Source of the DNA: Flavobacterium sp. 9R
GTDB lineage: Bacteria; Bacteroidota; Bacteroidia; Flavobacteriales; Flavobacteriaceae
Assembly (NCBI RefSeq): GCF_902506345.1
Contig: NZ_LR733413.1
Span: 1,652,569 to 1,716,568, forward strand
Length of the DNA stretch: 64,000 nucleotides
Direction of reading: 5' to 3'
The position numbers and the translations under genes were made by a program. Below, piece after piece: positions 21,491 to 51,245 of this stretch. Position 1 is the stretch's first letter; the number at the start of each line of letters is the position of its first letter. The notes under the pieces were generated by a model. That model searched no databases. It saw only the letters and a list, made by a program, of their open reading frames with translations, and was not told where the DNA came from.

Positions 21491-22765
21491 TTAATTCTTG
21501 TTGGTACTAAATAATCTTGGACTAAAAGAGACCATTAGCCAAGCCCAGTTATTGGCATCAGCAGCATTGGTAACATTCTTTACTCGCTCTAAAGTAGTAG
21601 ACGTAAATATTTGAGAGAAACCACCCGAAATCACAATATCTTTTTGCACTACATAAGACGCTGTCAAATCAATTTCAGTTCCTAAATAGCTATCCATTTG
21701 TTTGCCTTGCGCATCCAATACTTTATTAGGAGCATTGAAAATATGAGGAACTAAAGCAAATTGCCATTGCTTATTTTTGTAATTTAATTTCAAATAAGCA
21801 TCCTGTAAACCCACATTATTTTGATGGTTTCCAACATAAAAATAGTCCATCAATCCGTTGAAAGCATGATTGGTTCCGAACAATGGAGTAAAGGATTTTA
21901 GCTTCGTATCGGTATCGTTTTGGTCTTTACCAGAAAGAAATTCATAGCCTAATCCTGCAGAAAAACTATCGACAATAGCATAATTTACATAACCTGAAGC
22001 ATACCACGCACCAAGTTGCTTACCTACGCTTTGCCCTGTTTGTCCATAAAATCCAAAATTAGCATCCCATTTTTTGTCTTTGAACGTTATGTACGTTCCA
22101 AAAGTTTGTTTGTAATCTACTTCTAAATCGTTTGGACTTTTCTGAAATTCGTAACCTGTGTTTAAAAATAACAAACTCAAACCAATCTTTGTCCAATTGT
22201 GGTGCAACCAAGCATATTGCATTGCTTTGTAATTAGTAGTATAGGGTGTTGTGGGTGTTACCAAGTTCTCAGCATTAGCATTTAATGCAAAACCTAAATC
22301 CAAAAGGCTATTCTCTTTTTTGTAGCTGATTAATGCTGCGTCGTGACTTTGCCCTTGTTGCAACCAATCAATTCCCCCCATAATCCTCTCGTTATCATAA
22401 GAAAGTACCTGTCTGCCTAATGTTGTGCTCCAATTTTCATTAAAATGGTATTTGGCCCAAGCTTCAAAAACAGCTAAACCATTTTTACCTGCTGTGGCCG
22501 TCGTAGCTGCATCGCCCCAAGTTCGAATGTCTTGAACACTTAATTTGGCGGTCAATCTTTCTTGGTGAAAAGCAAGATTCAATCGAGAACGTTGTGCAAT
22601 AAACGAGGTGGCTTCCTCTGTATCTAAAAGAGGACTTTTAAAACCATTTCTAAATTCAAAACGAGGGCGTAATTGAAGATTTATATCAAATTCTTGTGCA
22701 ATTGCATTGGCATTTACAACTATAAAAACAGTCAGTACTATTCTTTTCAAAGTAGTCATACACAT
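21491..22765 (-). CDS. Alginate-export-family outer membrane porin, nitrate operon
   Basis: 424 residues. A signal peptide (IVLTVFIVVNANAIA, cleavage before QEF) precedes a beta-barrel of alternating polar and aromatic strands (LQLRPRFEFRNGF, TTLGRQVLSYDNERIMGG, IDWLQQGQSHDAALIS). The family makes monomeric outer-membrane channels. It is a paralogue of the porin at 48805-50232, sharing the WLQQG-x-x-HDA block and a C-terminal LMVSFSPRLF-like strand. As first gene of the NarK/nitrate reductase operon, it probably lets nitrate or nitrite cross the outer membrane. Upstream are an FNR-like box and a weak 26-bp palindrome. Confidence 0.85.
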   Translation of the reverse strand: MCMTTLKRIVLTVFIVVNANAIAQEFDINLQLRPRFEFRNGFKSPLLDTEEATSFIAQRSRLNLAFHQERLTAKLSVQDIRTWGDAATTATAGKNGLAVFEAWAKYHFNENWSTTLGRQVLSYDNERIMGGIDWLQQGQSHDAALISYKKENSLLDLGFALNANAENLVTPTTPYTTNYKAMQYAWLHHNWTKIGLSLLFLNTGYEFQKSPNDLEVDYKQTFGTYITFKDKKWDANFGFYGQTGQSVGKQLGAWYASGYVNYAIVDSFSAGLGYEFLSGKDQNDTDTKLKSFTPLFGTNHAFNGLMDYFYVGNHQNNVGLQDAYLKLNYKNKQWQFALVPHIFNAPNKVLDAQGKQMDSYLGTEIDLTASYVVQKDIVISGGFSQIFTSTTLERVKNVTNAADANNWAWLMVSFSPRLFSTNKN

Positions 22766-22792
22766 ATTTTTTTGATTTTATAACGATTCAAA

Positions 22793-22818
22793 GATAAAAG
22801 ATGTTTTTATCCTTAATT
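22793..22818 (-). promoter_or_regulatory. Degenerate copy of the 26-bp denitrification palindrome
   Basis: GATAAAAGA-N8-TCCTTAATT matches AATAAAAGA-N8-TCTTTTATT (seen at nirK, norC and ric) in 15 of 18 defined positions, with the same spacing. It directly abuts the FNR-like box and lies about 30 bases upstream of the porin start. Confidence 0.45.
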
Positions 22819-22832
22819 ATGATAAAAATCAT
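22819..22832 (-). promoter_or_regulatory. FNR/DNR-like box of the porin-nitrate reductase operon
   Basis: ATGATAAAAATCAT is a perfect palindrome with the TGAT-N4-ATCA core of FNR, ANR and DNR sites. The identical 14 bases occur at 33584-33597 between norC and ric. It lies 54 bases upstream of the porin start, suggesting anaerobic or NO-responsive activation. Confidence 0.7.
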
Positions 22833-23313
22833 TTTATTATAAATTTATTAAAAAAAATATGAATATGCATATTTAAAATGGCGCAAGTATAACAATATTT
22901 TGAGCCAAGGATATATAATCCATTATTAAACAACACATTAATAGAAGTAAAAAATTAAAGAAAGTATGTCTTTATAACTATTCTTTAGAGAATTTGTTAC
23001 TATTTATTAAACCAGCAAAATTTCAATAAGTGTATCTGAGACCAAATCTCATTTCAGTTATAGTTATTCAATTAATTATTTCGATGTTATATCCACAAGC
23101 CTTGATGACCTATTCATAGCAAGGAATAAAACATCATCAATTAAAAAAAAAGAAAAAAACTAGAATCAATCAATGTATAATTGTTGGTTCTAGTTTTCTA
23201 AAATGAATTAATAAGTCTCATAATATTTTGAAAGTCAGTACTTAATTAAAAGTAAAAATCAACAAAACAAATGTTTTTTTTAATTACAAAACAGAAAATT
23301 AATAAGAATATAA
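22833..23313. other. AT-rich intergenic region
   Basis: 480 bases between the porin promoter and the end of the SCO gene. Apart from the terminator hairpin at 23156-23197, I see only AT-rich sequence with short A and T runs. There is no credible open frame on either strand. Confidence 0.6.
23145..23197 (-). terminator. Terminator of the nirK operon
   Basis: AAAACTAGAA (23156-23165) pairs with TTCTAGTTTT (23188-23197); the loop bases pair further (TCAA, CAAT with ATTG, TTGG). On the minus strand the stem runs into a long T-rich tract, so it ends the transcript from nirK through the SCO gene. Confidence 0.7.
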
Positions 23314-23946
23314 CTATTTTGCTTCCTCAATTATTTTAGTCACTGTAGCATCTGAATTAACCCCAAGCCCTTCTTGCTGAAAAACAAGTTCACCTTGAGT
23401 ATTAAACACACTAATAATATTAGAATGAGAGAAATCTATAGGAGAAACTTTTTTGTAATTAACGGCTAATACTGCGGCAAACTCACGGGTATTCTCTTCA
23501 GAAGACCTAAGAAAAAGCCATGGTTTGGCATCCATTTTATTTTCTATTGCAAAAGCCTTTAATCGTTTTGGAGTATCCACTTTTGGATCAATACTCACCA
23601 AAATGAGTTGCACCTTGTCTTTAATTTTGTTTGGTAAGCGACTTTCTATGTTTCTCATATCGGCAACGAGTCTAGGGCAAGCTGCTTTACAGGAGGTGTA
23701 AATCATGACCATAACCAAAACTTTGCCTTTTAAATCTTTCATCTCCATATTTTGACCCTCTTGTGAGGTCCATTGTGAAGGCAAATTATAGATAGACAAA
23801 TCTGAAATTGGTTTTTCTTTGACAACAGACTCCTTTTTTTGACAACTTTGCAAAGAAAGAAAAAACAATAGAAGAGGTAATGCTAAAATAGAGGATCGGT
23901 TCAATAACACCCTCGTTTTTTTGTGATTGAATAACAATAATTTCAT
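23314..23946 (-). CDS. SCO1/SenC-type copper-binding lipoprotein
   Basis: 210 residues. The leader ends in LSLQSC, a lipobox. A thioredoxin-like fold carries the SCO copper motif TSCKAACPR (CxxxC) and a distal ligand His in DFSHSNII. SCO proteins deliver copper or act as thiol reductants for cuproenzymes. It follows nirV, cytochrome c and nirK, so the copper nitrite reductase is the likely client. It is the last gene before a strong terminator. Confidence 0.88.
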   Translation of the reverse strand: MKLLLFNHKKTRVLLNRSSILALPLLLFFLSLQSCQKKESVVKEKPISDLSIYNLPSQWTSQEGQNMEMKDLKGKVLVMVMIYTSCKAACPRLVADMRNIESRLPNKIKDKVQLILVSIDPKVDTPKRLKAFAIENKMDAKPWLFLRSSEENTREFAAVLAVNYKKVSPIDFSHSNIISVFNTQGELVFQQEGLGVNSDATVTKIIEEAK

Positions 23947-23973
23947 TTTGAAACGTTTTTATAGATTTGGATA

Positions 23974-24744
23974 CTACTTATCTTTAGCACATCTAAAACC
24001 TAAATTCTTAGTTGTATAATTTGCCTTGAGGCTCCCCCTAAAAGCGTAACGCATAAAAGCGGCATAATTCATCAAATCGGTAGCATTTACCGAACCGCTT
24101 CCGCAAAAGAGATTTTTATCGGTAGCTTTATCTTTTCGAGACTCACCAGAAAGAAAAATACTGTTGAAGTCGGCTGTCCATTCCCAAACCAAACCATGCA
24201 TATCATACACTCCCCAATAATTTTTATAGGTTTTCCCTATCGGATTTAAATAGGTTTTGGGTTTTTCGTACCAAGACATAATGTATTTATTAAACTCCTC
24301 TTTGGCACGGGCATCGATACGTTTTTCATCAGCCATAGCAACATATTCCCATTCGTCCATAGTAGGCAATCGTTTCCCTTGACACTCGCAATATTTTTTG
24401 GCAGCAAACCAAGAAACATTAGTCACAGGAGCGTTTTCCAAGTTATTTTTACCATAATTATAATCACCTTGCCATTGATAGAGATAACTTTTGTCGGCAA
24501 AAAGGGCTTTCATTTGAGAACGACTATAGGCTGGATTTTTTTTTACAAATGCAAGATATTGCGCATTGGTAACTGGATATATATCGATACTAAAAGAAGC
24601 TACTTGTACTGGTTTTTTTGAAGTTGTACCATAGAGGGGGACAAAAGCCCCCCTATTTATGGTAGCCATTTTTACATTTTGAGCATAAAAAGTATAATCA
24701 ATGAAGAATAAAATGAAGATAAATATTTTTTTAAAGGATATCAT
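23974..24744 (-). CDS. nirV: NirV-like formylglycine-generating-enzyme family protein
   Basis: 256 residues. A signal peptide (IFIFILFFIDYTFYA) is followed by a SUMF1/FGE-fold domain: FSIDIYPVTNAQYLAFV, APVTNVSWFAAKKYCEC, GKRLPTMDEWEYVAM, DMHGLVWEWTADF and the closing NLGFRCAKDK. NirV proteins of this family are commonly encoded beside nirK in denitrifiers; their exact function is unsettled. It lies between a cytochrome c and the SCO protein in the nirK operon. The paired cysteines of catalytic FGE are not clearly kept, so a copper-related or structural role is as likely as cysteine oxidation. Confidence 0.8.
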   Translation of the reverse strand: MISFKKIFIFILFFIDYTFYAQNVKMATINRGAFVPLYGTTSKKPVQVASFSIDIYPVTNAQYLAFVKKNPAYSRSQMKALFADKSYLYQWQGDYNYGKNNLENAPVTNVSWFAAKKYCECQGKRLPTMDEWEYVAMADEKRIDARAKEEFNKYIMSWYEKPKTYLNPIGKTYKNYWGVYDMHGLVWEWTADFNSIFLSGESRKDKATDKNLFCGSGSVNATDLMNYAAFMRYAFRGSLKANYTTKNLGFRCAKDK

Positions 24745-24770
24745 TGAAAAACTTTTTTGCTGGATCTGTA

Positions 24771-25148
24771 TTATTTTCTTTGGGCTTTTACCATAGCTGG
24801 TGTAACCACTGTTTTATTATTACCCCAACTTGCATATACATAAGTCAATGCATCTGCAATTTGTTGATCGCTTAACGCTTGTGCAGGCATTGCTCCACTG
24901 AATTTTTTTCCGTTTACTGTAATAGGTCCTGATAGTCCTTTTACTACACCTTTTATGGCGCGATTAACATCTTTGTTTAGATAATCGGATTTTGCTAATG
25001 GAGGAAAAGCACCAGGAATACCTTGCCCAGTTGGCTGATGACAAGCTACACAAACTTTATCATAAACTCCTTTTCCTTTAACAGCATTTTGGCTAAAACC
25101 ACACCAACTCATTACTAGCATTGCGCTAGTCAAAACATACTTTTTCAT
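24771..25148 (-). CDS. Periplasmic monohaem cytochrome c, paralogue of the NirK C-terminal domain
   Basis: 125 residues with a signal peptide ending GFSQ. The haem motif is CVACH near residue 33, and the axial Met is probably in GAMPAQALS. The segments [13 protein letters not shown] and [15 protein letters not shown] closely match the C-terminal cytochrome of NirK encoded immediately upstream. It may be the electron donor to nitrite reductase, or a duplicate of its fused donor domain. Confidence 0.9.
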   Translation of the reverse strand: MKKYVLTSAMLVMSWCGFSQNAVKGKGVYDKVCVACHQPTGQGIPGAFPPLAKSDYLNKDVNRAIKGVVKGLSGPITVNGKKFSGAMPAQALSDQQIADALTYVYASWGNNKTVVTPAMVKAQRK

Positions 25149-25185
25149 TGATTTTTTTTTTTAGATTATAATTGATTGTAAAATA

Positions 25186-26670
25186 TTAATGCGATGCAAC
25201 TGGTTTTGGTGTTGGTTTAGCTCTTACCGTTTTTACTTTTGCAGCCGTTACCACTGTTTTATTATTTCCCCAACTGTTATATACGTATGTCAAAACATCA
25301 GCTACTTCTTCATCTGTTAAGTTTTGACTAGTCATAACATTATTAAATTTTTTACCATTCACAGTAATTTCTCCACTTAAACCGTTTAATACAGCACCGA
25401 TTGCTCTTTCTGTATTTGCGTTTAAGAAATCAGATTTTGCCAATGGAGGAAATGCATTAGGAACTCCTTGTCCTTCGGACTGATGACAAGCAAAACAGGT
25501 TCTACCGTACAATTCTTTACCTGATTTAATTTGCTCAGGAACATTCTTAGCTACCACTTTCTTGGAGGCTCCATTTTCTTTTGGCATATTTTGAATAGTT
25601 CCTCCTTCTGGTAGATATATTCCCTCTTGTGTAGTTCCCGAATAAATTGTTTTCTTCTCCTCTCCTTCAACTTTCAACATCCCCAAAGCGCCTTTGTTGA
25701 AGGCTCTGAAAATAGAATGATCTACCAAAATAAAAGTTCCAGGAACATCTACTTTAAATTCTACTATAGCCGAGCCACCAGCTGGAATTAGTGTTGTTTG
25801 GACATTTTCGTTAATCAAATCTCCCCCTTCAATATGCACTTTGTCAAATATTTCACCTATAATATGAAAAGAAGACACCAAATTAGGACCTCCATTTCCC
25901 ATAAAAATCCTAACGGTTTCTCCTACTTTAGCCGTAATTGCCTTATCTCCAGCCACTGCTCCCACTTTTCCGTTAAAAACAACATAATCTGGCTGTTCCT
26001 TTATTGCTTTATTCATATCAAAAGGCTGAGATCCCTGTTCTCCATAAGCACCTTTGGTATAAAAGTCTCCTTGCATGATGTAATATTCTTTGTCTACTGG
26101 AGGTAATCCCCCTTCGGGTTCCACCAATATCAAACCATACATACCGTTGGCAATATGCATACCAACTGGAGCTGTAGCACAATGATAGACATATAACCCA
26201 GGATTTATTGTTTTAAAATTGAAAACTTTTTCATGACCTGGAGCCACTAGTGAAGAGGTCGCTCCTCCACCAGGACCTGTCACCGCATGCAAATCAATAT
26301 TATGCGGCATTTTATTATCGGGGTGGTTTTTCAAATGAAATTCTACCTCATCACCAACTCTAGTTCGTATAAAACTTCCGGGAACAGATCCTCCAAATGT
26401 CCAATAAGTATATTTTACACCATCGACCATTTCGCCTTCTTCTTCTTTAATTTCCATATTCACAACTAGTTTTGTTGCGGATCTATCACCTATGGGCTTA
26501 GGTACAAATGGTGGTGCGGTTAACTCTGCCTCTTTTTGTCCTTCAACTATTATATCTTGGTAATCGTTAACTCCATTTTCTTTTTTGGAACAGGAAGAAA
26601 AAATTAACAATCCCAATATAAAAAAAGGGAACCAGATGAAATGTTTTTGAATATTTAATTTGGTTTTCAT
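25186..26670 (-). CDS. nirK: Copper nitrite reductase fused to a C-terminal cytochrome c
   Basis: 494 residues, lipoprotein (IFSSC, Cys27). NirK reduces nitrite to nitric oxide in the periplasm. Two cupredoxin domains carry the copper ligands: [10 protein letters not shown], then [16 protein letters not shown] (type 1 Cys and His), with a second-domain His in SSFHIIGE. Residues 385-480 form a cytochrome c domain ([18 protein letters not shown]), probably delivering electrons to the type 1 copper. A 26-bp palindrome and a weak FNR-like box lie upstream. First gene of a nirK, cytochrome c, nirV, SCO operon. Confidence 0.95.
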
Positions 26671-26698
26671 AATGTTTTATGTTAAAAGTTAGTTATCA

Positions 26699-26724
26699 AA
26701 TAAAAGACTTTTTTGTCTTTTATT
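26699..26724 (-). promoter_or_regulatory. 26-bp palindrome at the nirK promoter
   Basis: AATAAAAGA-N8-TCTTTTATT with an inner C-TTTTTT-G; the pairing extends to 26697-26726. The same 26-base frame occurs twice between norC and ric. It lies 29 bases upstream of the nirK start, over the expected -7 region, so it is probably an operator. Confidence 0.7.
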
Positions 26725-26760
26725 TGAACATAAAATTATAATACTTTAGCGGATTAAAAA

Positions 26761-26774
26761 CTGACAATTATCAT
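26761..26774 (-). promoter_or_regulatory. Possible degenerate FNR-like box upstream of nirK
   Basis: CTGAC-AATT-ATCAT keeps one full half site and the TGA of the other. Its centre is 56 bases from the nirK palindrome centre; the perfect box at norC is 59 bases from its palindrome. That matching layout is the main support. Confidence 0.35.
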
Positions 26775-26789
26775 GTTATTAACTTTTAT

Positions 26790-27038
26790 TTAAGATATTT
26801 TTACAAAGAGAATTATTCCCATTAACAAAAAAAGCACAAGAAGTAAAGAGCCTTTCCAAAACGAGTTTGCTTTTTTTAACTCCATAAACTGAAAACTTAC
26901 AACTAAAAATTTACAAACACTTAAGAAAAGAATTAATCCAACTTTTGGTAAAATACTATAATTAAAAGAAGCTATCAATCCTGAAAAAATAGTGAATGAA
27001 ATCAATATAAAATAGCTTAAAATTAAACTCCTTTTCAT
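26790..27038 (-). CDS. norF: NorF/cytochrome oxidase subunit IV-like small membrane protein
   Basis: 82 residues, three hydrophobic helices (SLILSYFILISFTIFSGLIA, VGLILFLSVCKFLVVSFQFM, GSLLLVLFLLMGIILFV). It resembles the prokaryotic subunit IV/NorF family that accompanies NorE. The ATG at 27038 lies two bases after the norE stop region, which supports this start over the ATG 21 codons upstream. It probably helps maturation or activity of nitric oxide reductase. Last gene of the nor operon. Confidence 0.7.
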   Translation of the reverse strand: MKRSLILSYFILISFTIFSGLIASFNYSILPKVGLILFLSVCKFLVVSFQFMELKKANSFWKGSLLLVLFLLMGIILFVKIS

Positions 27039-27040
27039 GT

Positions 27041-27622
27041 TCAAAAAAGTGTGTAAATAATTGGAAATAATAACAACCAAATCAGATCGCAAAGATGCCA
27101 AAAAGCGGCACTTGCTTCAACATCCTCAAGTGTAGTAGCTGAATTTTTCTTGGTCATCAAGTAATTTATCCAAACCAAAATTATTAATCCAACGATAACA
27201 TGAATTACATGGAATCCAGTCAATAACCAATAAAAAGTATAAAACAGATTGGTATCTAATGAAATACCACTTTCTATTTTTTGATAATACTCTGTCCCCT
27301 TAAGTATCAAGAACAAAACGCCTCCCAACATAGCCAATTGAAAAAACATTGACGATTTTTGAATTTCATTGTTCTTATATAGATGCACAGCATTTGCCAT
27401 AAAAAATCCACTTGTTAATAAAAATACCGTATTTATTATTCCAAAAGTAGTGTTTAACTGCATTCTTGATTGATGAAAAATAGCCGTGTTTTCATTTCCG
27501 TAATACGCAAATGCTACCAATGCAATCCCAAAAGTGATGAGTTCCAAAAAAATGATTATCCACATTAGAATTCCTCCCGGTGGATAGTAGAAATTCTGAT
27601 AATTTATTTTTAATCTATCCAT
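27041..27622 (-). CDS. norE: NorE, haem-copper oxidase subunit III-like protein
   Basis: 193 residues, five hydrophobic helices. Subunit III signature features include GFHVIHVIVGLIILVWINY and a terminal ASAAFWHLCDLIWLLLFPI. Stand-alone subunit III-like proteins next to nor genes are NorE. It comes after norCB, norQ, norD and the DUF438 gene and precedes norF. It is thought to support NO reductase rather than carry catalysis. Confidence 0.85.
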   Translation of the reverse strand: MDRLKINYQNFYYPPGGILMWIIIFLELITFGIALVAFAYYGNENTAIFHQSRMQLNTTFGIINTVFLLTSGFFMANAVHLYKNNEIQKSSMFFQLAMLGGVLFLILKGTEYYQKIESGISLDTNLFYTFYWLLTGFHVIHVIVGLIILVWINYLMTKKNSATTLEDVEASAAFWHLCDLIWLLLFPIIYTLF

Positions 27623-27696
27623 AAGTTATTATTGAAGTTCCACTAAACATAGCTTTCCAAAATAAGACTCGATCATTCAATGAGTTTACTTCCGGT

Positions 27697-28662
27697 TTAT
27701 TTCCAATCCAACAACCGTTTTTCTCCCTCAATTTTTTTAATATCAGTGATATCCTGAGACATTTCGATCACACCTTTATAATTTTTATTAGCATCCCTCA
27801 CCGCGAAATAACGTATGTAAATTAATCGCTCTTTGTGGTTTATCCAAAATGAAGATTCATTTTGAGTGCCTTTTCTAAATTCTTCCAAAATTTTAAGCAC
27901 CGTTCCAACGCTTTTTGGCGGATGACAAAATTTTACTTCACGACCAATAATCCCAGCGCTTCTCGGAAAAACACGCTCTTCGCCTCTATTGTAAAAAATT
28001 ACTTTGTCGTTTTCATCCACATAAGTCAAATCCAATGGCATCGTTCTAAATAATAAATTGACTTGCTCGACAGTCATATACCCTTCATCATAATGAGAAG
28101 TGTTTTCTAATGCAAAAGGAATTTCGCGAACCTTAAAATCTTCGCTTGGATGCACATATTCCATTTTTGGAAAAGACGGGGGTGTTTCAGCTAACATCCA
28201 ACCAATTTCTTCCTCACCTCTACGCATTTCTATCCAATCACTTTCGGTTAAGATATCTAATGCATTTGGAAATAGAACATCCTCTTCGACACTCATCAAT
28301 CGATTGATTCCATTGATTAAAAATGGAGTATTGACTTCTATTTTTTCTAGATTATCCATTTTGAGATAGTGCTGAATCAATCGAAACTGCTCTCTCAAGG
28401 TATCATGAAATGACCACATTCCTTGTGAAGGTCCCAACCAACCTTTTTTCTCCAAAAAGGGAAAAAGTTGATTTTCTTTTCTTGCGAAACGTTTTTCAAT
28501 TGTAAACAATTGATTAAATATATTGATAAATTGTAGCAAATCATTTTTCGGTTTAACATATTTGATCTCTTGCAACAGTGATTCAATTAGTTTTTTTTCT
28601 TGTAAATAAATCCAAACAGGATGACCTTCTGGTAGTCTTGGTGTTTGATGTGTATCTTGCAT
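27697..28662 (-). CDS. DUF438/hemerythrin-like/PAS protein in the nor operon
   Basis: 321 residues, soluble. The N-terminal part (LPEGHPVWIYLQEKKLIESLL) and following His/Glu-rich helices (FARKENQLFPFLEKKGW, SVEEDVLFPNALDIL) match the DUF438 plus hemerythrin-like arrangement, which could hold a di-iron site. The C-terminal third is a PAS domain (LDLTYVDENDKVIFYNRGEE, EVKFCHPPKSVGTVLKIL, IEMSQDITDI) with a CHP motif. The likely role is sensing or scavenging NO, but it has no output domain. It starts eight bases after norD. Confidence 0.75.
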   Translation of the reverse strand: MQDTHQTPRLPEGHPVWIYLQEKKLIESLLQEIKYVKPKNDLLQFINIFNQLFTIEKRFARKENQLFPFLEKKGWLGPSQGMWSFHDTLREQFRLIQHYLKMDNLEKIEVNTPFLINGINRLMSVEEDVLFPNALDILTESDWIEMRRGEEEIGWMLAETPPSFPKMEYVHPSEDFKVREIPFALENTSHYDEGYMTVEQVNLLFRTMPLDLTYVDENDKVIFYNRGEERVFPRSAGIIGREVKFCHPPKSVGTVLKILEEFRKGTQNESSFWINHKERLIYIRYFAVRDANKNYKGVIEMSQDITDIKKIEGEKRLLDWK

Positions 28663-28669
28663 AATAATT

Positions 28670-30445
28670 TTATTTTTGATGTTTTATTTTCTCAAATAAT
28701 TTCACCAAAGATTGCAACAACTCAACTGGAGTTGTCAAAATTTGATAGTGATTTTGTCCGAACATTTGTGGCAAATAATACTTAGCTTCTGATTCTATGG
28801 CCAATGCATAGGAATTAATATTTTTAGAGTTGAGTTCTCGAAGGGCCTGTTTTACATCATTCACTCCATATTTTCCTTCATATTTATCATAATCATTGGG
28901 CTTACCATCAGAAATCAGGATAATCCATTTGTTTTTGGTCCTTCGTTTATCAAGACGAACTCCAGCATGCCGTAAAGCGGCTCCAATCCTAGTATAGCCA
29001 CTTGGCTCAACTGCTCCAATTTTGTTTTTGGCGATATTCCAGCTTTCATCAAAATCCTTAATTGTTAAATAAGTGGAATAATTGCGAGTTTTGGAATAAA
29101 AACTATCAATAGAAAAATCAATATCGAACTCATTTAAAATTTCGCCAAACAAAATAGAAACCTCTTTTTCTACATCAATCACTCGATTTCCAGCAGCGTA
29201 GCCGTCACTAGATAAACTAATGTCCAATAGTAATATTATAGACAAATCTTTGTCCTTTTTTCGACTAGATATATATATATTTTCAGAAGGTGTTCTCCGA
29301 GAGTGTACATCGACAAACAAATCAGTAATCGCGTCTATATCCAATTCATCTCCTTGATTTTGACGCTTTTGTTGTTGCATTTTATTATTAATATTCGTTA
29401 GCATCTTGCGCAAACTCATTAAAGTTGAAGCATTCTTTACAATTGTTTTTTTGTAATAATCACTGTTTTTTTTGAGTTGCAATTTTGGATACACTTTACA
29501 AAAATTGTCTTTGTAAGCATTCTTTCTGAAATCCCATTCATCATAACTATGATGATACCCTTTCTCATCGATATTAGCACTTTCAGAAATGCTGGTGTTT
29601 TCTACAAAATCAGCTTGATATACCGAATGTGTAGCATCATCTACCCTTACAGTATATTTCATATTCAATTCTTCCAAAGCATCTTGATGGTCTTCGAGCT
29701 CATCTGAACCGTCGAAATCGCGCCAGTTACCATTGAATTCTTCTGCGGTTTCTACCTTTTCGAAACTATGGAGTAAGACATAGTCCTCTTGTTGTTTTTT
29801 ATCGATTTCAAGCGTATTAACTTCCTCGACTGCTTTCGCATTGAGAGTGGTCAAAGGTTTACTTGTACTGTTTTTTTTTGTCGCATCCGTAAAATTATGA
29901 AGCTCATTTTCATTGTCGATAATCGCTTCATTTTTCATCCATTTCCCATAAAGCCAAGAAAAGTCAGGTGGCTTAGTAGCAGTTGCTTTTTGAATAAAAT
30001 GATTCCTTGCATTTAGAAGAAACTGTTTCTCTATTGAAAATTCTTCAAACAAAACGGATAAAATACTTTCCGAAGTTTCTAATGCTTTTTGTTGAGAAAG
30101 TAATAAGGAGGGTTCAGTTATATCTGATGTCCAATTTAGATTCAACCTCTGCTGAACGCTTAGGTACAAAATTCTAAAGTGATAAAACATAAGATTCTCT
30201 TTTACTGTTAAAAATTCCGAAAATGAAATTGGAAGAAAAAAATTATTGTTTTTGTAACCACCTTCTCTTTCTGCAGGAAATATTTCAATTGATTTTCCTG
30301 TAATGGCTCTGGCAATGATAGTCAGTCGTGGTTTAATATCATTCAAAAAAACCGTTCTTGCTTCTACGCCGGGATTTATTTTTTTTCTGTTTTTTAAGTG
30401 TTTAAAAAACTTCCCTACTAAGTATTCATCTATTTCGAAACCCAT
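28670..30445 (-). CDS. norD: NorD, von Willebrand factor A protein for NO reductase activation
   Basis: 591 residues. The C-terminal 200 residues form a VWA domain with MIDAS motif LLLDISLSSDG (DxSxS), a Thr in SGYTRIGAALRHAG and ISDGKPNDYD. The N-terminal half is helical, with an acidic central region. NorD works with the AAA+ ATPase NorQ to insert the non-haem iron into NorB. The start is ATG 30445, two bases inside the edge of a 125-bp inverted-repeat element that separates it from norQ. Confidence 0.9.
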   Translation of the reverse strand: MGFEIDEYLVGKFFKHLKNRKKINPGVEARTVFLNDIKPRLTIIARAITGKSIEIFPAEREGGYKNNNFFLPISFSEFLTVKENLMFYHFRILYLSVQQRLNLNWTSDITEPSLLLSQQKALETSESILSVLFEEFSIEKQFLLNARNHFIQKATATKPPDFSWLYGKWMKNEAIIDNENELHNFTDATKKNSTSKPLTTLNAKAVEEVNTLEIDKKQQEDYVLLHSFEKVETAEEFNGNWRDFDGSDELEDHQDALEELNMKYTVRVDDATHSVYQADFVENTSISESANIDEKGYHHSYDEWDFRKNAYKDNFCKVYPKLQLKKNSDYYKKTIVKNASTLMSLRKMLTNINNKMQQQKRQNQGDELDIDAITDLFVDVHSRRTPSENIYISSRKKDKDLSIILLLDISLSSDGYAAGNRVIDVEKEVSILFGEILNEFDIDFSIDSFYSKTRNYSTYLTIKDFDESWNIAKNKIGAVEPSGYTRIGAALRHAGVRLDKRRTKNKWIILISDGKPNDYDKYEGKYGVNDVKQALRELNSKNINSYALAIESEAKYYLPQMFGQNHYQILTTPVELLQSLVKLFEKIKHQK

Positions 30446-30447
30446 AA

Positions 30448-30572
30448 TAATCCCCCTAGCCCCCGAAGGGGGAACTCCTATCAGGAGGCAATAGGATTTA
30501 AGTTGTTAAAAATTTAATCAATATAATTTATTTATGTAAAGTTGTATTCCCCTTCGAGGGTTAGGGGGATTA
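30448..30572. mobile_element. MITE-like inverted-repeat element between norQ and norD
   Basis: The left arm 30448-30474 (TAATCCCCCTAG start, CGAAGGGGGAA end) and right arm 30547-30572 are inverted copies differing by one deletion and two substitutions. About 70 AT-rich bases lie between, including a CTCCT-ATC-AGGAG hairpin. The right arm supplies the norQ stop codon and the left arm ends two bases from the norD start. Similar arms flank moaE. No transposase is present. Confidence 0.65.
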
Positions 30573-31361
30573 TATCATCAAATTGCACAAATCCTTCAGT
30601 GATTCTATGGTTTGCAAATCATCTGTAAGAGGCTCTACAATAGCAACTTGAACAGACAATCGTTTAGGCAATCCGCTTTGAATGATTTTGGCCGCATCAA
30701 CTAAAAGCCTAGTAGAAACAGTTTCGGTTAATCCTAATTCGGTTAAATTTCTAATTTTGTTACCAATAGCTACTAATTTTTTGGCAGTATCGCTGTCAAT
30801 ATTAGTTTCATTTACTAAGATTTCTGTTTCAATTTTTGGTTCTGGATAATCAAAAGTAACTGCAATAAATCGTTGACGAGTTGATGGTTTAAGCTCTTTG
30901 AAACCTCTTTGATAACCTGGATTAAAAGAAGCTACGAGCATAAAATCATTATGCGCCTGTATAGTCTCTCCTAATTTATCTATAAATAGCACGCGTCGAT
31001 GATCAGTAAGAGAGTGGATAGCGACAATAACATCTGGTCGAGCCTCTGCTATCTCATCCAAATAGATAATAGAACCTTCTTTTACAGCTGTTGTCAATGG
31101 GCCATCCAACCAAACCGTTTCGGCTCCTTTAATGATGAATCGACCAATCAAATCTGTGGAAGACGTTTCTTCGTGACAACTAATGGTAATCAATTTTTTA
31201 TTCAACTGATGTGCCATAAACTCAATAAAACGTGACTTCCCTGTTCCTGTAGGACCTTTTAACAAAAAAGGAATTTTGTTACTATAGGAATGAACAAAGA
31301 TTTCTGTCTCTTTACCTGTAGCTTGGTAATATGGGATTTTTATTAAATTATCTGTTAGCAT
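30570..31361 (-). CDS. norQ: NorQ, MoxR-family AAA+ ATPase
   Basis: 263 residues. Walker A GPTGTGKSRF, Walker B SIIYLDEIAEARPD, sensor region LVASFNPGYQRG and the arginine-finger segment LKPSTRQRF. NorQ powers metal insertion into NO reductase together with NorD. It begins 245 bases after norB, with a hairpin between, and its last codon lies in the inverted-repeat element. Confidence 0.92.
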   Translation of the reverse strand: MLTDNLIKIPYYQATGKETEIFVHSYSNKIPFLLKGPTGTGKSRFIEFMAHQLNKKLITISCHEETSSTDLIGRFIIKGAETVWLDGPLTTAVKEGSIIYLDEIAEARPDVIVAIHSLTDHRRVLFIDKLGETIQAHNDFMLVASFNPGYQRGFKELKPSTRQRFIAVTFDYPEPKIETEILVNETNIDSDTAKKLVAIGNKIRNLTELGLTETVSTRLLVDAAKIIQSGLPKRLSVQVAIVEPLTDDLQTIESLKDLCNLMI

Positions 31362-31380
31362 TTTCTTTATTATTATAAAA

Positions 31381-31448
31381 AACCGAAACGTAGAACAATC
31401 ACTCTATGGAAATGCAAATTCTTAAACGATTATCCAAACGTTCCGGTT
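31381..31448. repeat. Imperfect inverted repeat between norB and norQ
   Basis: AACCGAAACGT (31381-31391) and ACGTTCCGGTT (31438-31448) match in 10 of 11 bases. It lies 20 bases upstream of norQ and could be an RNA hairpin that tunes expression between the structural and activation genes. Confidence 0.45.
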
Positions 31449-31605
31449 AAAAATGGAATCGTTATATTATATGTATCTATTTTATTGAGTAAAAAACTTT
31501 TATATCCTTAAATAATTCATTTGCACCTCTTATTAAATTTAAATCCTATGGCTTAAAACTGGATTTATCATTAAAATAACGTTATAAAATTTCAATTAAA
31601 AAAAA

Positions 31606-32940
31606 CTATCGTTCAATCAATGCTTCATTAGTTGGGCGGCCATATTTTATAAAATCATATATAAACAATGAAATTCCTGTTGTAAACATTGTCGCACAGA
31701 TGAGTAATACAACGAAGTGAATACTTATTTCATTTTGCACTATCATAAATTCCATTTTTAATTTTCTCTCCAAGTAGACTTGCACCACTCCAGCGACTCC
31801 AAATGCAACAGTCATCCCCAACATTCCAATATTTGACAACCAAAAAGCAGCCATTCCCGTATTACTTTGGTATCGTTTTCGACCTGTTACATTGGGCAAT
31901 GCATAACTAATAATTGCTAAAACTATCATAGCATAGGCACCCCAAAAAGCATAATGCCCGTGCATAGCAGTAACCAATGTCCCGTGAGTATATAGATTAG
32001 TTTGCGGAAGAGTATGTGCAAAACCTAATAAACCAGCCCCCACAAAGGAAACAATAGACGAGCCAATAGTCCAGAATAATGCAATTTTATTAGGATGACT
32101 CTTTTCGCCTTTGCGATACATATTGACTGCGAACAAAGCCATAGCCAAGAAAGCTAAAGGTTCTAATGCAGAGAAAATCCCACCAATGATTAACCAAATC
32201 TTATTAACTCCTATGTAATAATAATGGTGTCCTGTCCCTAAAACTCCTGAAAGAAACGTTAACCCTACAATCACATATAGCCACTTTTCAATAACTTCCC
32301 TATCAACACCTGTCAATTTGATTAATAAATAGGAAAGAATACCTCCCATAATTAATTCCCATACACCTTCAACCCACAAATGCACAACCCACCAACGGAA
32401 AAAAGAATCCACTACTTGGCTGTCAAACCAAATCATTCCAGGCAAATACAACAAGGCAGCAAACAGCAATCCCATTGATAAAACCAATGCTGTAGTAGTT
32501 CTTCGTTTCGCTTTAAATAAAGTTCCCAAAATTAAACCTAAAAATAAGAGAACATTTACAACTACCAGAAAATCTAATTCTCTTGGTATCTCCAAAAATT
32601 TACGTCCTTCCCAATGGTTTAAATGAAATCCTACTATTGCTACAACTCCAACAACAGCCAATGAAATCAGTTGAATGTAAGCCCACTTCACGCTAATTAA
32701 CTCACGTTGAGCTTCTTCAGGAATAATATAATAAGCCGCTCCCATAAAACCAGTTAGTAACCACACTACTAGTAAATTAGTATGCACTGCTCTAGCGGTA
32801 TTAAAAGGAATAATGTCATGCAATCCTTGGATTCCAATTCTGTCAAAACCCATTATAAAACCATAGATAATCTGTAAGGAAAATAATAGCATACATAGTG
32901 CAAAAAACCAGTAGGCTACTTTTTGTGATTGATATTTCAT
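31606..32940 (-). CDS. norB: Nitric oxide reductase subunit B
   Basis: 444 residues with about twelve helices. NorB reduces 2 NO to N2O at a haem b3/non-haem iron site. Conserved histidines are seen in ARAVHTNLLVVW, WWVVHLWVEGVWEL (iron His with the active-site Glu), GTGHHYYYIG and TAMHGHYAFWGAY (haem ligands). The length matches cytochrome c-dependent NorB rather than the longer quinol-type qNor. The start at 32940 (MKYQSQKVAYW) was chosen because the upstream ATG adds 16 polar residues. It follows norC after 106 bases. Confidence 0.94.
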   Translation of the reverse strand: MKYQSQKVAYWFFALCMLLFSLQIIYGFIMGFDRIGIQGLHDIIPFNTARAVHTNLLVVWLLTGFMGAAYYIIPEEAQRELISVKWAYIQLISLAVVGVVAIVGFHLNHWEGRKFLEIPRELDFLVVVNVLLFLGLILGTLFKAKRRTTTALVLSMGLLFAALLYLPGMIWFDSQVVDSFFRWWVVHLWVEGVWELIMGGILSYLLIKLTGVDREVIEKWLYVIVGLTFLSGVLGTGHHYYYIGVNKIWLIIGGIFSALEPLAFLAMALFAVNMYRKGEKSHPNKIALFWTIGSSIVSFVGAGLLGFAHTLPQTNLYTHGTLVTAMHGHYAFWGAYAMIVLAIISYALPNVTGRKRYQSNTGMAAFWLSNIGMLGMTVAFGVAGVVQVYLERKLKMEFMIVQNEISIHFVVLLICATMFTTGISLFIYDFIKYGRPTNEALIER

Positions 32941-33046
32941 ATTTGTATTTTTCTTGTTAGAATTCAATTTTTGCCCGGATTTTATCAAATAATGATGATA
33001 AACGTAAACTTGCTTACAATAGTGAATTCAATTGTTATGTTATTTA

Positions 33047-33481
33047 TTAATTATTCTCTTTCGCTAAAGGTGAAACCACACGGTCAAACCCATTCAAATC
33101 TATTTTACCAATCCACTTTAGGTAAGCAACAACAGCCTCTGCGTCTTGTTCGCCCATATTATAAACAACCATTTTACGACCATTTGGAGCCCAAGGTACA
33201 GGCGACATCAAAACAGCTTTAACATACCCTTCTCCTCTTCTATCTACTACTTTAGTAAGTTCAGGCGCATAATAGGCTCCTTCTCCCAATATAGTGTGAC
33301 ACCCCATACAGTTATTGGATTCCCAAAGTTCTTTTCCTCTGGCGACTTGTTTAGTAATAGCCTTGTAATTAGTTTGGTCATTTCTAGGCATAAACGAATA
33401 AATGGTCAATCCTATGAAGATTAAAAAGGTGACCAAAGTTCCTCCCAGAAAAAATGCTCGAGCTTGTGATTTTGAAAGCAT
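33047..33481 (-). CDS. norC: Nitric oxide reductase cytochrome c subunit
   Basis: 144 residues. One N-terminal membrane anchor (FFLGGTLVTFLIFIGLTIY), then a cytochrome c domain with CMGCHTILGEGAYYAPEL and probable axial Met in GRKMVVYNMG. It passes electrons to NorB. First gene of the nor operon; a perfect 26-bp palindrome lies 38 bases upstream and a FNR-like box 103 bases upstream. Confidence 0.95.
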   Translation of the reverse strand: MLSKSQARAFFLGGTLVTFLIFIGLTIYSFMPRNDQTNYKAITKQVARGKELWESNNCMGCHTILGEGAYYAPELTKVVDRRGEGYVKAVLMSPVPWAPNGRKMVVYNMGEQDAEAVVAYLKWIGKIDLNGFDRVVSPLAKENN

Positions 33482-33518
33482 AATAAATGGTTTTTATTAG
33501 TATTGAATTTTGATTAAC

Positions 33519-33544
33519 AATAAAAGATAAATTTATCTTTTATT
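33519..33544 (-). promoter_or_regulatory. Perfect 26-bp palindrome at the norC promoter
   Basis: AATAAAAGA-TAAATTTA-TCTTTTATT is fully self-complementary. It differs at one base from the copy at 33674-33699 and has the same outer nine-base arms as the nirK copy. An Rrf2 regulator with an iron-sulfur cysteine triad is encoded 2.7 kb downstream, in the ric cluster. Confidence 0.75.
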
Positions 33545-33583
33545 TAATTACAGCAAATTAAGAGTATATTAAAAAGTAAAAAC

Positions 33584-33597
33584 ATGATAAAAATCAT
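33584..33597. promoter_or_regulatory. FNR/DNR-like box between norC and ric
   Basis: ATGATAAAAATCAT, identical to the box at 22819-22832. It lies between divergent promoters and is better placed for norC (about 80 bases from its likely start of transcription) than for ric. Confidence 0.7.
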
Positions 33598-33673
33598 AAA
33601 TTAAATATATTCTTTTTAGTAATAATAAAAAAAACAAAACCAATCTGATAATCTATAACTTACGATAAAAAAC

Positions 33674-33699
33674 AATAAAAGATAATTTTATCTTTTATT
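33674..33699 (+). promoter_or_regulatory. 26-bp palindrome at the ric promoter
   Basis: AATAAAAGATAA-TT-TTATCTTTTATT; 25 of 26 bases match the norC copy. It covers the -33 region of a promoter whose -7 element TATATTTG lies at 33711-33718, a classical repressor position. Confidence 0.75.
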
Positions 33700-33710
33700 T
33701 AAAAATTATA

Positions 33711-33718
33711 TATATTTG
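33711..33718 (+). promoter_or_regulatory. -7 element of the ric promoter
   Basis: TATATTTG fits the Bacteroidota TAnnTTTG consensus exactly. It is 22 bases upstream of the ric ATG, giving a short leader. Confidence 0.6.
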
Positions 33719-33740
33719 TACCCAATTAAAACATATCATT

Positions 33741-34472
33741 ATGAACACCATTGAAAACACAACCATAGGAGAATTTGTAGCGAAAGATTTTAGAACGGCA
33801 GCAGTATTCTCAAAATTTGGTATAGATTTTTGCTGCAAAGGAAATCGAACTATCGAAGAAGCAAGCGAGAAAAAAGGCGCAGATAGCCAAACCATACTTG
33901 CTGAAATTAAAGCTGTTTTAGAAAGTAAAACTGACAACAGCATTGATTTCAAATCTTGGCCATTGGATTTATTAGCTGACTATATAGAAAAGACACATCA
34001 TCGTTATGTAGTAGAGAAAACACAAGTCCTATTACCATTTTTGAGTAAACTTTGCAAAGTACACGGCGCACATCATCCGGAACTTTTCGAGATTAATGAA
34101 TTATTCATTGGGTGTTCTGGTGAATTGGCGCAACACATGAAAAAAGAAGAATTAATACTATTTCCATTTATAAAAAAAATGGTACAAGCTACACTTACAG
34201 ATGAACTCATCTCCCAACCTCATTTCGGAACAGTCGAAAATCCAATTGCAATGATGAAGCATGAACATGATACTGAAGGAGAACGTTTTAGAAAAATTGC
34301 TATGTTAACTTCTAATTACGCTCCTCCAGCTGATGCTTGCAACACTTATAAAGTAACTTTTGCTATGCTTCAAGAATTTGAACAAGACCTTCACAAACAC
34401 ATTCATTTAGAAAACAACATTTTATTTCCGGCAGCTGTTGCTCTGGAAAAAGACTTCATAGCTCAATCTTAA
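33741..34472 (+). CDS. ric: Iron-sulfur cluster repair di-iron protein (Ric/YtfE/ScdA)
   Basis: 243 residues. The N-terminal ScdA_N/DUF542 domain has KFGIDFCCKGNRTIEEA (Cys pair). It is followed by a hemerythrin-like di-iron domain with spaced His/Glu ligands: EKTHHRYVVEK, KVHGAHHPEL, AQHMKKEELILFPF, MMKHEHDTEG and DLHKHIHLENNILFP. These proteins repair Fe-S clusters damaged by nitrosative stress. Divergent from the nor operon under the same type of palindrome, so it is probably derepressed by NO. Confidence 0.94.
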   Translation: MNTIENTTIGEFVAKDFRTAAVFSKFGIDFCCKGNRTIEEASEKKGADSQTILAEIKAVLESKTDNSIDFKSWPLDLLADYIEKTHHRYVVEKTQVLLPFLSKLCKVHGAHHPELFEINELFIGCSGELAQHMKKEELILFPFIKKMVQATLTDELISQPHFGTVENPIAMMKHEHDTEGERFRKIAMLTSNYAPPADACNTYKVTFAMLQEFEQDLHKHIHLENNILFPAAVALEKDFIAQS

Positions 34473-36224: not shown

Positions 36225-36659
36225 ATGTTTTCAAAAACTACTGAATACGGCATTCGAGCTGCAATTTTTGTGGCATCAGAATCGCATCAAAACAAAAGAT
36301 CCGGGCTAAAGGATATTGCTAAAAAGATAGATTCTCCAGAAGCTTTTACGGCCAAAATCATGCAAATTTTAACCAAAAACAAACTGATAGATTCTGTAAA
36401 AGGAGTCGGAGGCGGTTTTGAAATCCCAACAGAACGTTTGTCCCAAGTTAAACTTTCGCAAATAGTAAATGCGTTAGAAGGCGATCGCGTTTTTAGAGGA
36501 TGTGGTTTAGGATTAAGTAATTGTTCCGAAGAACATCCTTGCCCGATGCATGAAAAATTCAAATCAATCAGAAACGATCTTTCTAATATGTTAGAAAATA
36601 CCACCCTCGAAGAATTGACTTTGGGTTTAAAAACGGGAGATACATTTTTACGATATTGA
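36225..36659 (+). CDS. Rrf2-family iron-sulfur regulator (NsrR/IscR-like)
   Basis: 144 residues. The N-terminal winged helix (MFSKTTEYGIRAAIFVA, then VGGGFEIP wing) is typical of Rrf2. Cysteines 93, 100 and 106 (C-x6-C-x5-C) plus His109 form the cluster-binding loop: GCGLGLSN, then CSEEHPCPMH. Spacing is close to IscR (C-x5-C-x5-C, H) and NsrR. The position at the end of the ric cluster argues for an NO sensor of the NsrR type. It is the best local candidate to bind the 26-bp palindromes. ATG 36225 fixes the usual Rrf2 start. Confidence 0.88.
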   Translation: MFSKTTEYGIRAAIFVASESHQNKRSGLKDIAKKIDSPEAFTAKIMQILTKNKLIDSVKGVGGGFEIPTERLSQVKLSQIVNALEGDRVFRGCGLGLSNCSEEHPCPMHEKFKSIRNDLSNMLENTTLEELTLGLKTGDTFLRY

Positions 36660-50540: not shown

Positions 50541-51245
50541 TTAAATGTATTTATGATCCATAATTTCGGTTCTTAGCTTAGTTATATTTAACAATCCTAT
50601 TCTTTTTCCAGTAGTTGCTATTAATTGTTCTTTTTTTAAACTAGAGATCATTCTGGTCACTTGTTCCTCTGTGGTACCGGCAAAATCTGCTATCTCTTTA
50701 CGGGATAACGCTATGTCTATAGTGCCATCTGTTTGACCAAATTTTCTATGGATGTACAATAAAGAGTCAATCACACGTTCGCGAACATTCATGTGTGCAA
50801 TTTTCCGAATATTATTTTCACTTTTATTGAGTTCCTCTGCATAGAACAACATTAAATCATACGTAAATTCTGGAACAGTATGCAAAATTTCGAGCATAAC
50901 TTCATTACTAAAATTACACAAAACAGTATCCTCTAAGGCGTAAGCCCCAATCAAATAGCGTTTACTGGTACCAAAACCTCGAAAACCTAATGTATCACCG
51001 TCTTTGGTAAAGCGAACAATTTGCTCTCTACCATTAATACCGGTTTTTATGGTTTTAACTTTCCCTTTTTTTATAAAATACAGCCCTTGCATAGGAGCAC
51101 CCTCAATTATAAATTGATGACTTTTTTTGCATAAAAAGCTATTTTTTTTATCCAAAAAAGGTTTCATTTTATCCAAATGCAAATGCTTTTTTATAATACA
51201 GTTTTCATTGTTACAACTATTGCAATGTGCTAAGGCTTCCTTCAT
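50541..51245 (-). CDS. Crp/Fnr-family regulator with FNR-like cysteines
   Basis: 234 residues. A cyclic-nucleotide-like sensor (GLYFIKKGKVKTIKTG; QIVRFTKDGDTLGFRG), a dimer helix and a C-terminal HTH (LSRKEIADFAGTTEEQVTRM). Cys8, Cys11, Cys16 and Cys110 sit almost as the four cluster ligands of FNR (C20, C23, C29, C122), so an oxygen- or NO-sensitive Fe-S cluster is possible. The recognition helix has ExxTR where FNR has ExxSR. It is divergent from the assimilatory nitrate reductase with a TACGTA-N4-TACGTA site between, and is the best candidate regulator of that motif. Confidence 0.88.
   Translation of the reverse strand: MKEALAHCNSCNNENCIIKKHLHLDKMKPFLDKKNSFLCKKSHQFIIEGAPMQGLYFIKKGKVKTIKTGINGREQIVRFTKDGDTLGFRGFGTSKRYLIGAYALEDTVLCNFSNEVMLEILHTVPEFTYDLMLFYAEELNKSENNIRKIAHMNVRERVIDSLLYIHRKFGQTDGTIDIALSRKEIADFAGTTEEQVTRMISSLKKEQLIATTGKRIGLLNITKLRTEIMDHKYI

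Follow-up and report, generated by a model that had tools for sequence, protein, structure and literature searches.

We identified a 26-bp palindrome, AATAAAAGA-N8-TCTTTTATT, in front of nirK, norC and ric in a 64,000-nucleotide stretch of the Flavobacterium sp. 9R genome (contig NZ_LR733413.1, positions 1,652,569 to 1,716,568; hereafter the window), with a weaker copy in front of a porin gene. We propose that it is the operator of the Rrf2-family protein encoded at 36225 in the ric cluster; judged from sequence, this protein would be a nitric oxide (NO)-responsive repressor of nirK, norC, ric and the porin gene, working together with an FNR-type co-activator, a reading to which we assign a probability of about 0.85. 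The three-Cys clade of Rrf2 proteins to which it belongs most likely binds the palindrome, because predicted sites precede genes of this clade and none of their IscR-like paralogues, because motif and protein occur together across a genus, and because the site changes place with gene order in Flavobacterium loci.

The palindrome in Flavobacterium sp. 9R

Both nine-base arms are perfect in the nirK, norC and ric copies, as the first-pass annotation of this DNA had described. The norC and ric copies are identical except at one of the 26 positions, in agreement with the 25 of 26 given there, and the norC copy is self-complementary over all 26 bases. A search of the window with up to three mismatches returned five matches against 0.48 expected, a number reached in none of 100 window shuffles. 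In the whole genome (3,580,589 bases), only the nirK, norC and ric copies are found with at most one mismatch, and there are four copies with two mismatches; with up to three mismatches, the 42 matches equal the control count (43), so the arms by themselves do not set the porin copy (at 22793, with three arm mismatches) apart. When the window was scanned with a weight matrix built from 11 sites, all from other genera, the nirK, ric and norC copies came out on top in that order (scores of 31.5-32.7); fourth was the porin copy, with 17.3, and the next match scored 14.3. The weaker porin site noted earlier thus holds its rank in the cross-genus matrix and is lost in a genome-wide count of arms. 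A further weak palindrome-like match (matrix score 12.2) lies between norB and norQ (31488-31513).

The extended operator is AATWAARGAY-N6-RTCYTTTATT: conservation reaches inward beyond the arms, to Y at position 10 and R at position 17. The equal spacing of the arms claimed before holds, while the variable centre is six bases long and not eight.

Co-occurrence with Rrf2 proteins within one genus

Among 150 genomes of the same genus, 43 contain the strict motif AATWAARGAY-N6-RTCYTTTATT (one contains the reversed control), 61 encode a window-type Rrf2 protein (E 1e-48 or better), and 70 encode ric. All 43 genomes with the strict motif encode the window-type Rrf2 (p=1.7e-23). Genomes lacking this Rrf2 may simply lack the target genes, so the comparison within ric carriers is fairer: the strict motif is found in 43 of 59 carriers with the Rrf2 and in 0 of 11 without it (p=6e-6; both p-values overstate the association, as the species are related and not independent). 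We read the ric loci of 10 of these 11 Rrf2-less carriers (the other, G548, has a ric fragment and was counted as ric-positive) and found no site near ric, the only one being about 3 kb off in L346. Weak matches (A1) in G507, G515 and G613 (E 4.5e-22 to 9.6e-21) were not counted as carriers; these genomes have neither the strict motif nor ric. Eighteen Rrf2 carriers lack a strict copy; in nine of these a relaxed site immediately precedes an NO-related or Rrf2 gene, and in four it immediately follows the Rrf2 gene.

The Rrf2 clade and its own promoters

The genome of strain 9R has three Rrf2 genes, the window's and two encoding a CxDCxxExxC pattern, which we term IscR-like. The window protein contains Cys93-x6-Cys100-x5-Cys106-x2-His109; C93, C100 and C106 are invariant in 20 of 20 alignment rows, which were selected as three-Cys proteins. 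In its recognition helix, a nearly invariant Ala43 is followed by Lys44. The closest named contigs, among the best 80 of 571, are from Flavobacterium (80% identity in F. aquariorum).

We compared Rrf2 proteins and their promoters in 31 genomes picked for cNOR or a motif copy (two of 72 Rrf2-like open reading frames [ORFs], scoring below 100, were excluded), giving 46 proteins with C-x6-C-x5-C and 24 IscR-like proteins. In the tree, the 46 three-Cys proteins form one group (96/97) and the IscR-like paralogues a separate one; the Escherichia coli NsrR (the only NsrR included) and IscR have long branches joined to each other. The palindrome is found within 150 bp upstream of 29 of the 46 three-Cys genes and of none of the 24 IscR-like genes (p=5.7e-8, likewise overstated by the relatedness of the species). 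This contrast, that among ric carriers and the placement of sites in Flavobacterium loci (below) support the earlier suggestion that the palindrome would be bound by the Rrf2 protein encoded at 36225, as a putative repressor with its own operator. In addition, seven genomes (G005, G038, G107, G116, G131, G146 and G181) have sites at norC or nirK while every Rrf2 protein above the Pfam cut-off in them is of the three-Cys kind.

Three subtypes of the three-Cys proteins can be told apart. CGLGL, to which the window protein belongs, is often encoded near ric or qnor, and CFLGL often near norC. The gene of the third is divergently oriented to a clade II nosZ operon that also encodes a cytochrome c and a fasciclin-domain protein (L149:2781-5871, the one locus with proteins identified; other third-subtype loci show the same ORF-length pattern). 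Other gene neighbours were also seen: a tryptophanase gene (by NCBIfam) lies directly upstream of an Rrf2 gene in L056:6174-7547, and L044 and L167 have an equally long ORF in that place; and a second, distant NorC/NorB-like pair stands beside three-Cys Rrf2 genes in L095:2685-4428, L351, L352, L358 and L368. This pair (about 21% to NorB, with a weak ccoN match, and preceded by a site in L368) is possibly an unusual NO or oxygen reductase.

Recurrence of the palindrome at orthologous promoters

Absence of the palindrome from orthologous promoters in relatives had been named beforehand as the observation that would speak against the proposal; when relatives were checked, the site recurred at norC, nirK and ric. 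NorB is encoded in 28 of 199 genomes of the family (28 genera). At a matrix score of at least 10, sites are upstream of 19/29 norC, 12/16 nirK, 5/19 ric and 3/11 porin genes, counts that are not independent of the matrix, since its 16 training sites came partly from these loci; the control genes gave 0/28 for norB, 0/27 for norD, 1/27 for norQ, and 0/18 each for SCO and FGE. When these promoters were shuffled by dinucleotides, 0 to 1.1% of the shuffles reached a score of 10. These counts, and those of the FNR-type box in the family below, are confined to homologues of more than 40% identity, which reduced norC from 35 to 29, ric from 22 to 19, and porin from 13 to 11. Four norC genes without a site (in G050, G005, G125 and G134) each lie behind a nirK with one. 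A loose pattern with at most one mismatch was rejected as a genome-wide finder, since its 43 sites in the 199 genomes do not exceed the 52 of its reversed control; it is the location of its matches that marks it, 17 of the 43 being directly before an NO gene, a porin gene or an Rrf2 gene (some matches were judged from 1.5 kb on each side only).

We also examined named loci, the best 80 of 571 from the Rrf2 alignment (Flavobacterium, Myroides, Winogradskyella, Gelidibacter, Marivirga and others). A palindromic core (at least 10 of 13 pairs) is upstream of 39/80 Rrf2, 19/70 ric, 8/17 qnor, 6/9 norC and 5/21 nirK genes, and of 1/707 other ORFs. In the Flavobacterium loci closest to the window, where ric comes first, the site tends to be at ric and not at Rrf2 (for instance in L182-L187, L189 and L194; the ric-first loci L188 and L191-L193 have no site by the core criterion), and in named Flavobacterium loci where Rrf2 comes first, the site is before Rrf2. 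A marine variant of the operator reads TAAATAGGATAAATTTATCCTATTTA. In two genomes of the genus set (L353 and L366), a variant with GTGGAYA half-sites was seen beside Rrf2 and ric, a possible case of co-evolution of protein and site.

In a survey of the phylum (the best 30 of 232 positive genomes, of which five gave no start by the pattern used), the core stands before Rrf2 in 16 of the 25 readable loci, including five of the nine from outside the family (G348, G352, G465, G271 and G383). The other four (G461, G210, G381 and G469) have no core before Rrf2; G210 has a matrix match of 20.7.

Promoter geometry and an FNR-type box

In 126 promoters with a site, the median gap between site and start codon is 36 bases. 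Perfect TAnnTTTG (−7) elements cluster just upstream of the site (mainly at norC, nirK and qnor) and over its 3′ end, and in 36 cases, mainly at ric and Rrf2, the element follows the first base of the site at a distance of 36 to 41 bases. Another 26 perfect matches are the centre of the palindrome itself (offset +9); they are a property of one motif form and not promoter evidence. A scan for sigma-70 promoters and terminators gave nothing above shuffles.

An FNR-type box, TGAY-N4-RTCA, is found upstream of 23/29 norC and 11/16 nirK genes in the family loci, and of 5/9 norC and 12/21 nirK genes vs 42/707 other ORFs in the named loci. In norC, nirK and porin promoters that have both the box and a −7 element (n=42), the centre of the box is 39.5-41.5 bases before the estimated start in 38, and exactly 40.5 in 32; with perfect −7 elements it is within one base of −40.5 in 24 of 24. 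This is the position of a class II FNR/CRP activator. Among palindrome promoters, a box at class II distance from a perfect −7 is found at nirK (10/19), norC (11/27) and porin (3/4), vs Rrf2 (4/43), ric (0/21) and qnor (0/13). Thirteen of the 707 unidentified ORFs of L182-L261 also have such a box, and are candidate members of an FNR-type regulon.

The palindrome is not fixed in this way: its estimated centre is at about +8 to +22, or −20.5, at norC, nirK and porin promoters, at +26.5 at four qnor promoters, and at ric and Rrf2 promoters near −35.5 if reckoned from the outer −7 element, or −7.5 from the inner. A palindrome that wanders over the core promoter, beside an FNR-type box that stays in place, is a geometry that suits a repressor operator, and the norC, nirK and porin promoters look like two-input promoters. 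In the window, the ric copy had been said to cover the −33 region, which fits the perfect −7 element TATATTTG downstream of it. The nirK copy had been said to overlap the −7 region, and this we would revise: a −7 element inside the palindrome is less supported than TAATTTTA upstream of it, whose distance from the FNR-type box is the common one.

Comparison with known regulators

The window protein belongs to the Rrf2 family by its winged-helix domain (PF02082; 84.4 bits, cut-off 30). Its AlphaFold2 model (predicted local distance difference test score, pLDDT, 88.2) matches CymR, RsrR, NsrR and IscR chains (E 8.4e-8 to 1.8e-4), which confirms the fold of the modelled protein and does not decide its kind. 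The best-scoring curated equivalog is that of IscR (TIGR02010; 52 bits, cut-off 207.55), and NsrR (PRK11014) scored 30.3 bits against a cut-off of 182. With IscR the protein shares the pattern Cys-x5/6-Cys-x5-Cys-x2-His; unlike IscR it has Ala in place of Glu43 in the recognition helix, and the IscR-like paralogues of the same genomes are grouped apart. The long palindrome with inner GAY/RTC resembles an IscR type 1 site, and His109, three residues past the last Cys, is at the place of the fourth ligand of IscR. The regulator appears to work like NsrR, yet with its own operator and with scores below the cut-offs of both the NsrR and the IscR model. Its likenesses to NsrR are the Rrf2 fold, the three Cys, a residue other than Glu at position 43 followed by Lys, and predicted NO-related targets that include itself, so that the NsrR trait of an autoregulated NO-detoxification regulon is present as predicted sites only; it differs from the E. 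coli protein in Cys spacing (x6/x5 vs x4/x5) and from NsrR in the operator, as the consensus in the relatives, AATWAARGAY-N6-RTCYTTTATT, is not the published gATGyAT-N5-ATrCATc (PMC1274295).

Residue 43 is Ala in the NsrR of Streptomyces coelicolor and Pseudomonas aeruginosa, Val in enterobacterial NsrR, and Glu in IscR (PMC10783083), and Asp8 of the other subunit is a ligand in S. coelicolor NsrR (PMC5411485); PMC9338935 was used for Rrf2-DNA contacts. Rrf2 regulators are enriched in clade II nos scaffolds (PMC6264515), and our third subtype, divergent from such an operon, is like them; the available part of that paper gives gene neighbourhoods, and no operator or regulon. An FNR-type box is common to our promoters and to the CRP/FNR-family NO regulators HcpR, DNR and NnrR, from which the 26-bp palindrome is a separate element. 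The mentions of “Bacteroid” in PMC1274295 concern HcpR2, CRP/FNR homologues of Flavobacteriales were predicted for carbon sensing (PMC8510549), and nsrR is mentioned beside NO dismutase genes in FEN-1191 and Cecembia (PMC13386854). Among the papers listed by searches of open-licence full texts, none was seen to name an operator for nir, nor or ric genes of Bacteroidota.

Alternative explanations

Several observations weigh against the proposed repressor and have to be set beside the evidence for it. In the family, the loose pattern is not more frequent than its reversed control, and in the genus, five Rrf2 carriers (G523, G526, G542, G606 and G625) have no site at the genes fetched. Among the 46 three-Cys Rrf2 genes, 17 satisfied neither site criterion (some of these may have a doubtful start or lie inside operons), and no operator lies directly before the window's own Rrf2 gene, whose control we assume to run through the ric operon. 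The palindrome is similar across the Rrf2 subtypes, and therefore we assign no paralogue to any one copy. The transcription starts are estimates from −7 matches, and those of ric and Rrf2 are ambiguous, as the commonest motif form at these genes itself holds a perfect −7 match. Finally, the profile scores of the window protein are better for IscR than for NsrR. This last point, with a Cys3His pattern like that of IscR, would agree with an Rrf2 protein that binds the palindrome but activates, or that senses iron-sulfur status or iron instead of NO; we regard this as unlikely, because the estimated centres at most norC and nirK promoters (about +8 to +22) are ill-suited to an ordinary activator, the targets identified have to do with NO, and the site is missing from ric loci that lack the window-type Rrf2.

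Different binders were also considered. A CRP/FNR-family protein, such as that encoded at 50541, could bind the palindrome as activator or repressor, and there are four such genes over the cut-off in the genome, one of them in the window, as well as FNR-type boxes at norC, nirK and porin. These boxes, however, are elements separate from the palindrome, they are absent or rare at class II distance from a perfect −7 at ric, qnor and Rrf2, of the 190 Rrf2 or nor loci only 4 have a homologue of the protein encoded at 50541 nearby, and in the genus the palindrome follows the presence of the Rrf2; we consider such a binder very unlikely. The IscR-like paralogues have the same fold family and account for two further Rrf2 genes in the genome, but with no site before any of 24 such genes, and with seven genomes in which norC or nirK sites occur where all Rrf2 proteins over the cut-off are of the three-Cys kind, an IscR-like protein is almost certainly not the binder. 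That the palindrome acts as RNA, as a leader hairpin or a terminator, is highly improbable: it does fold (−7.9 to −14.5 kcal/mol, z −5.65 to −8.44) and is downstream of the estimated start in most norC and nirK promoters, but every DNA palindrome folds, so the z-scores alone are no evidence; at the window's ric gene and many Rrf2 genes a perfect −7 is downstream of the palindrome, which would place it outside that RNA; and no terminator was found in 33440-33760 and no Rfam match in the window.

Proposed mechanism

Under the reading we favour, an NO-responsive Rrf2 repressor, we infer that a homodimer carrying an iron-sulfur cluster (held by the three Cys and probably His109) would sit on the nirK, norC, ric and porin promoters and block RNA polymerase. 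NO would damage the cluster, the protein would leave the DNA, and NO reductase, Ric and nitrite reductase would be made, as would the regulator itself via the ric operon. The norC, nirK and porin genes would additionally require a putative FNR-type activator at about −40.5, and hence two signals; for ric and qnor, release of the repressor alone would suffice.

Features of the window

The elements and genes discussed above are collected in Table 1. Family searches of this neighbourhood also covered a NorQ-like ATPase, a VWA protein taken as NorD, and a hemerythrin-PAS protein. Between ric and the Rrf2 gene, a 403-residue membrane protein (34541-35752) has no Pfam or NCBIfam match; its homologues stand beside ric in other genera, and it is possibly NnrS-like. 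The CRP/FNR gene is flanked by a second porin-like ORF on one side and a nitrate-reductase-like gene on the other.

Table 1. Predicted regulatory elements and associated genes, in window coordinates.
Feature	Position	Strand	Remarks
Predicted palindromic operator, nirK	26699..26724	n/a	Perfect arms; centre estimated at +15.5, from a −7 element with one mismatch
Predicted palindromic operator, norC	33519..33544	n/a	Self-complementary; centre estimated at +18.5, from a −7 element with one mismatch
Predicted palindromic operator, ric and, via the operon, Rrf2 gene	33674..33699	n/a	Covers −33 region of the TATATTTG promoter
Predicted weaker operator, porin gene	22793..22818	n/a	Matrix score 17.3; site in 3/11 family porins
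FNR/CRP-type box, nirK, TGACAATTATCA	26762..26773	n/a	−40.5 from estimated start
FNR/CRP-type box, norC, TGATAAAAATCA	33585..33596	n/a	−40.5 from estimated start
FNR/CRP-type box, porin gene, TGATAAAAATCA	22820..22831	n/a	−40.5 from estimated start
−7 element, nirK, TAATTTTA	26731..26738	-	One mismatch to TAnnTTTG
−7 element, norC, TTAATTTG	33554..33561	-	One mismatch to TAnnTTTG
−7 element, ric, TATATTTG	33711..33718	+	Perfect
−7 element, porin gene, TATCTTTG	22789..22796	-	Perfect; overlaps operator
Rrf2 regulator, 144 amino acids, proposed binder	36225..36659	+	PF02082, 84.4 bits (cut-off 30)
ric, di-iron iron-sulfur-cluster repair protein	33741..34472	+	TIGR03652, 238.3 (cut-off 204.7)
norC, cytochrome c	33047..33481	-	PF00034; adjoins norB
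norB, catalytic subunit	31606..32988	-	PF00115
nirK, with C-terminal cytochrome c domain	25186..26670	-	TIGR02376, 349.3 (cut-off 296.3)
Porin-like outer-membrane protein	21491..22765	-	ORF; name from earlier sequence reading only
CRP/FNR regulator, one candidate for the FNR-type boxes	50541..51245	-	ORF; PF13545 match

Implications

Denitrifiers are common among the Bacteroidota, and clade II N2O reductases are found in this phylum. Recurrence of the palindrome in relatives points to an NO switch with its own DNA code in this phylum, and a defined regulator-operator pair makes the timing of the switch-on of NO reduction in Bacteroidota directly testable. The FNR-type box hints at a way of keeping nitrite reductase off until oxygen is low and NO is present. 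More broadly, we lean slightly toward the view that an Rrf2 clade of their own governs denitrification and NO defence in Bacteroidota, that it split into paralogues for ric/qnor, cNOR and nosZ which all read variants of a single palindrome, and that the operator behind a fixed FNR-type box forms a two-input NO/anoxia gate that evolved apart from the proteobacterial NsrR and NnrR circuits. If the proposed pairing is true, the Rrf2 family would gain a recognition code, in which Ala43-Lys44 goes with AARGAY half-sites.

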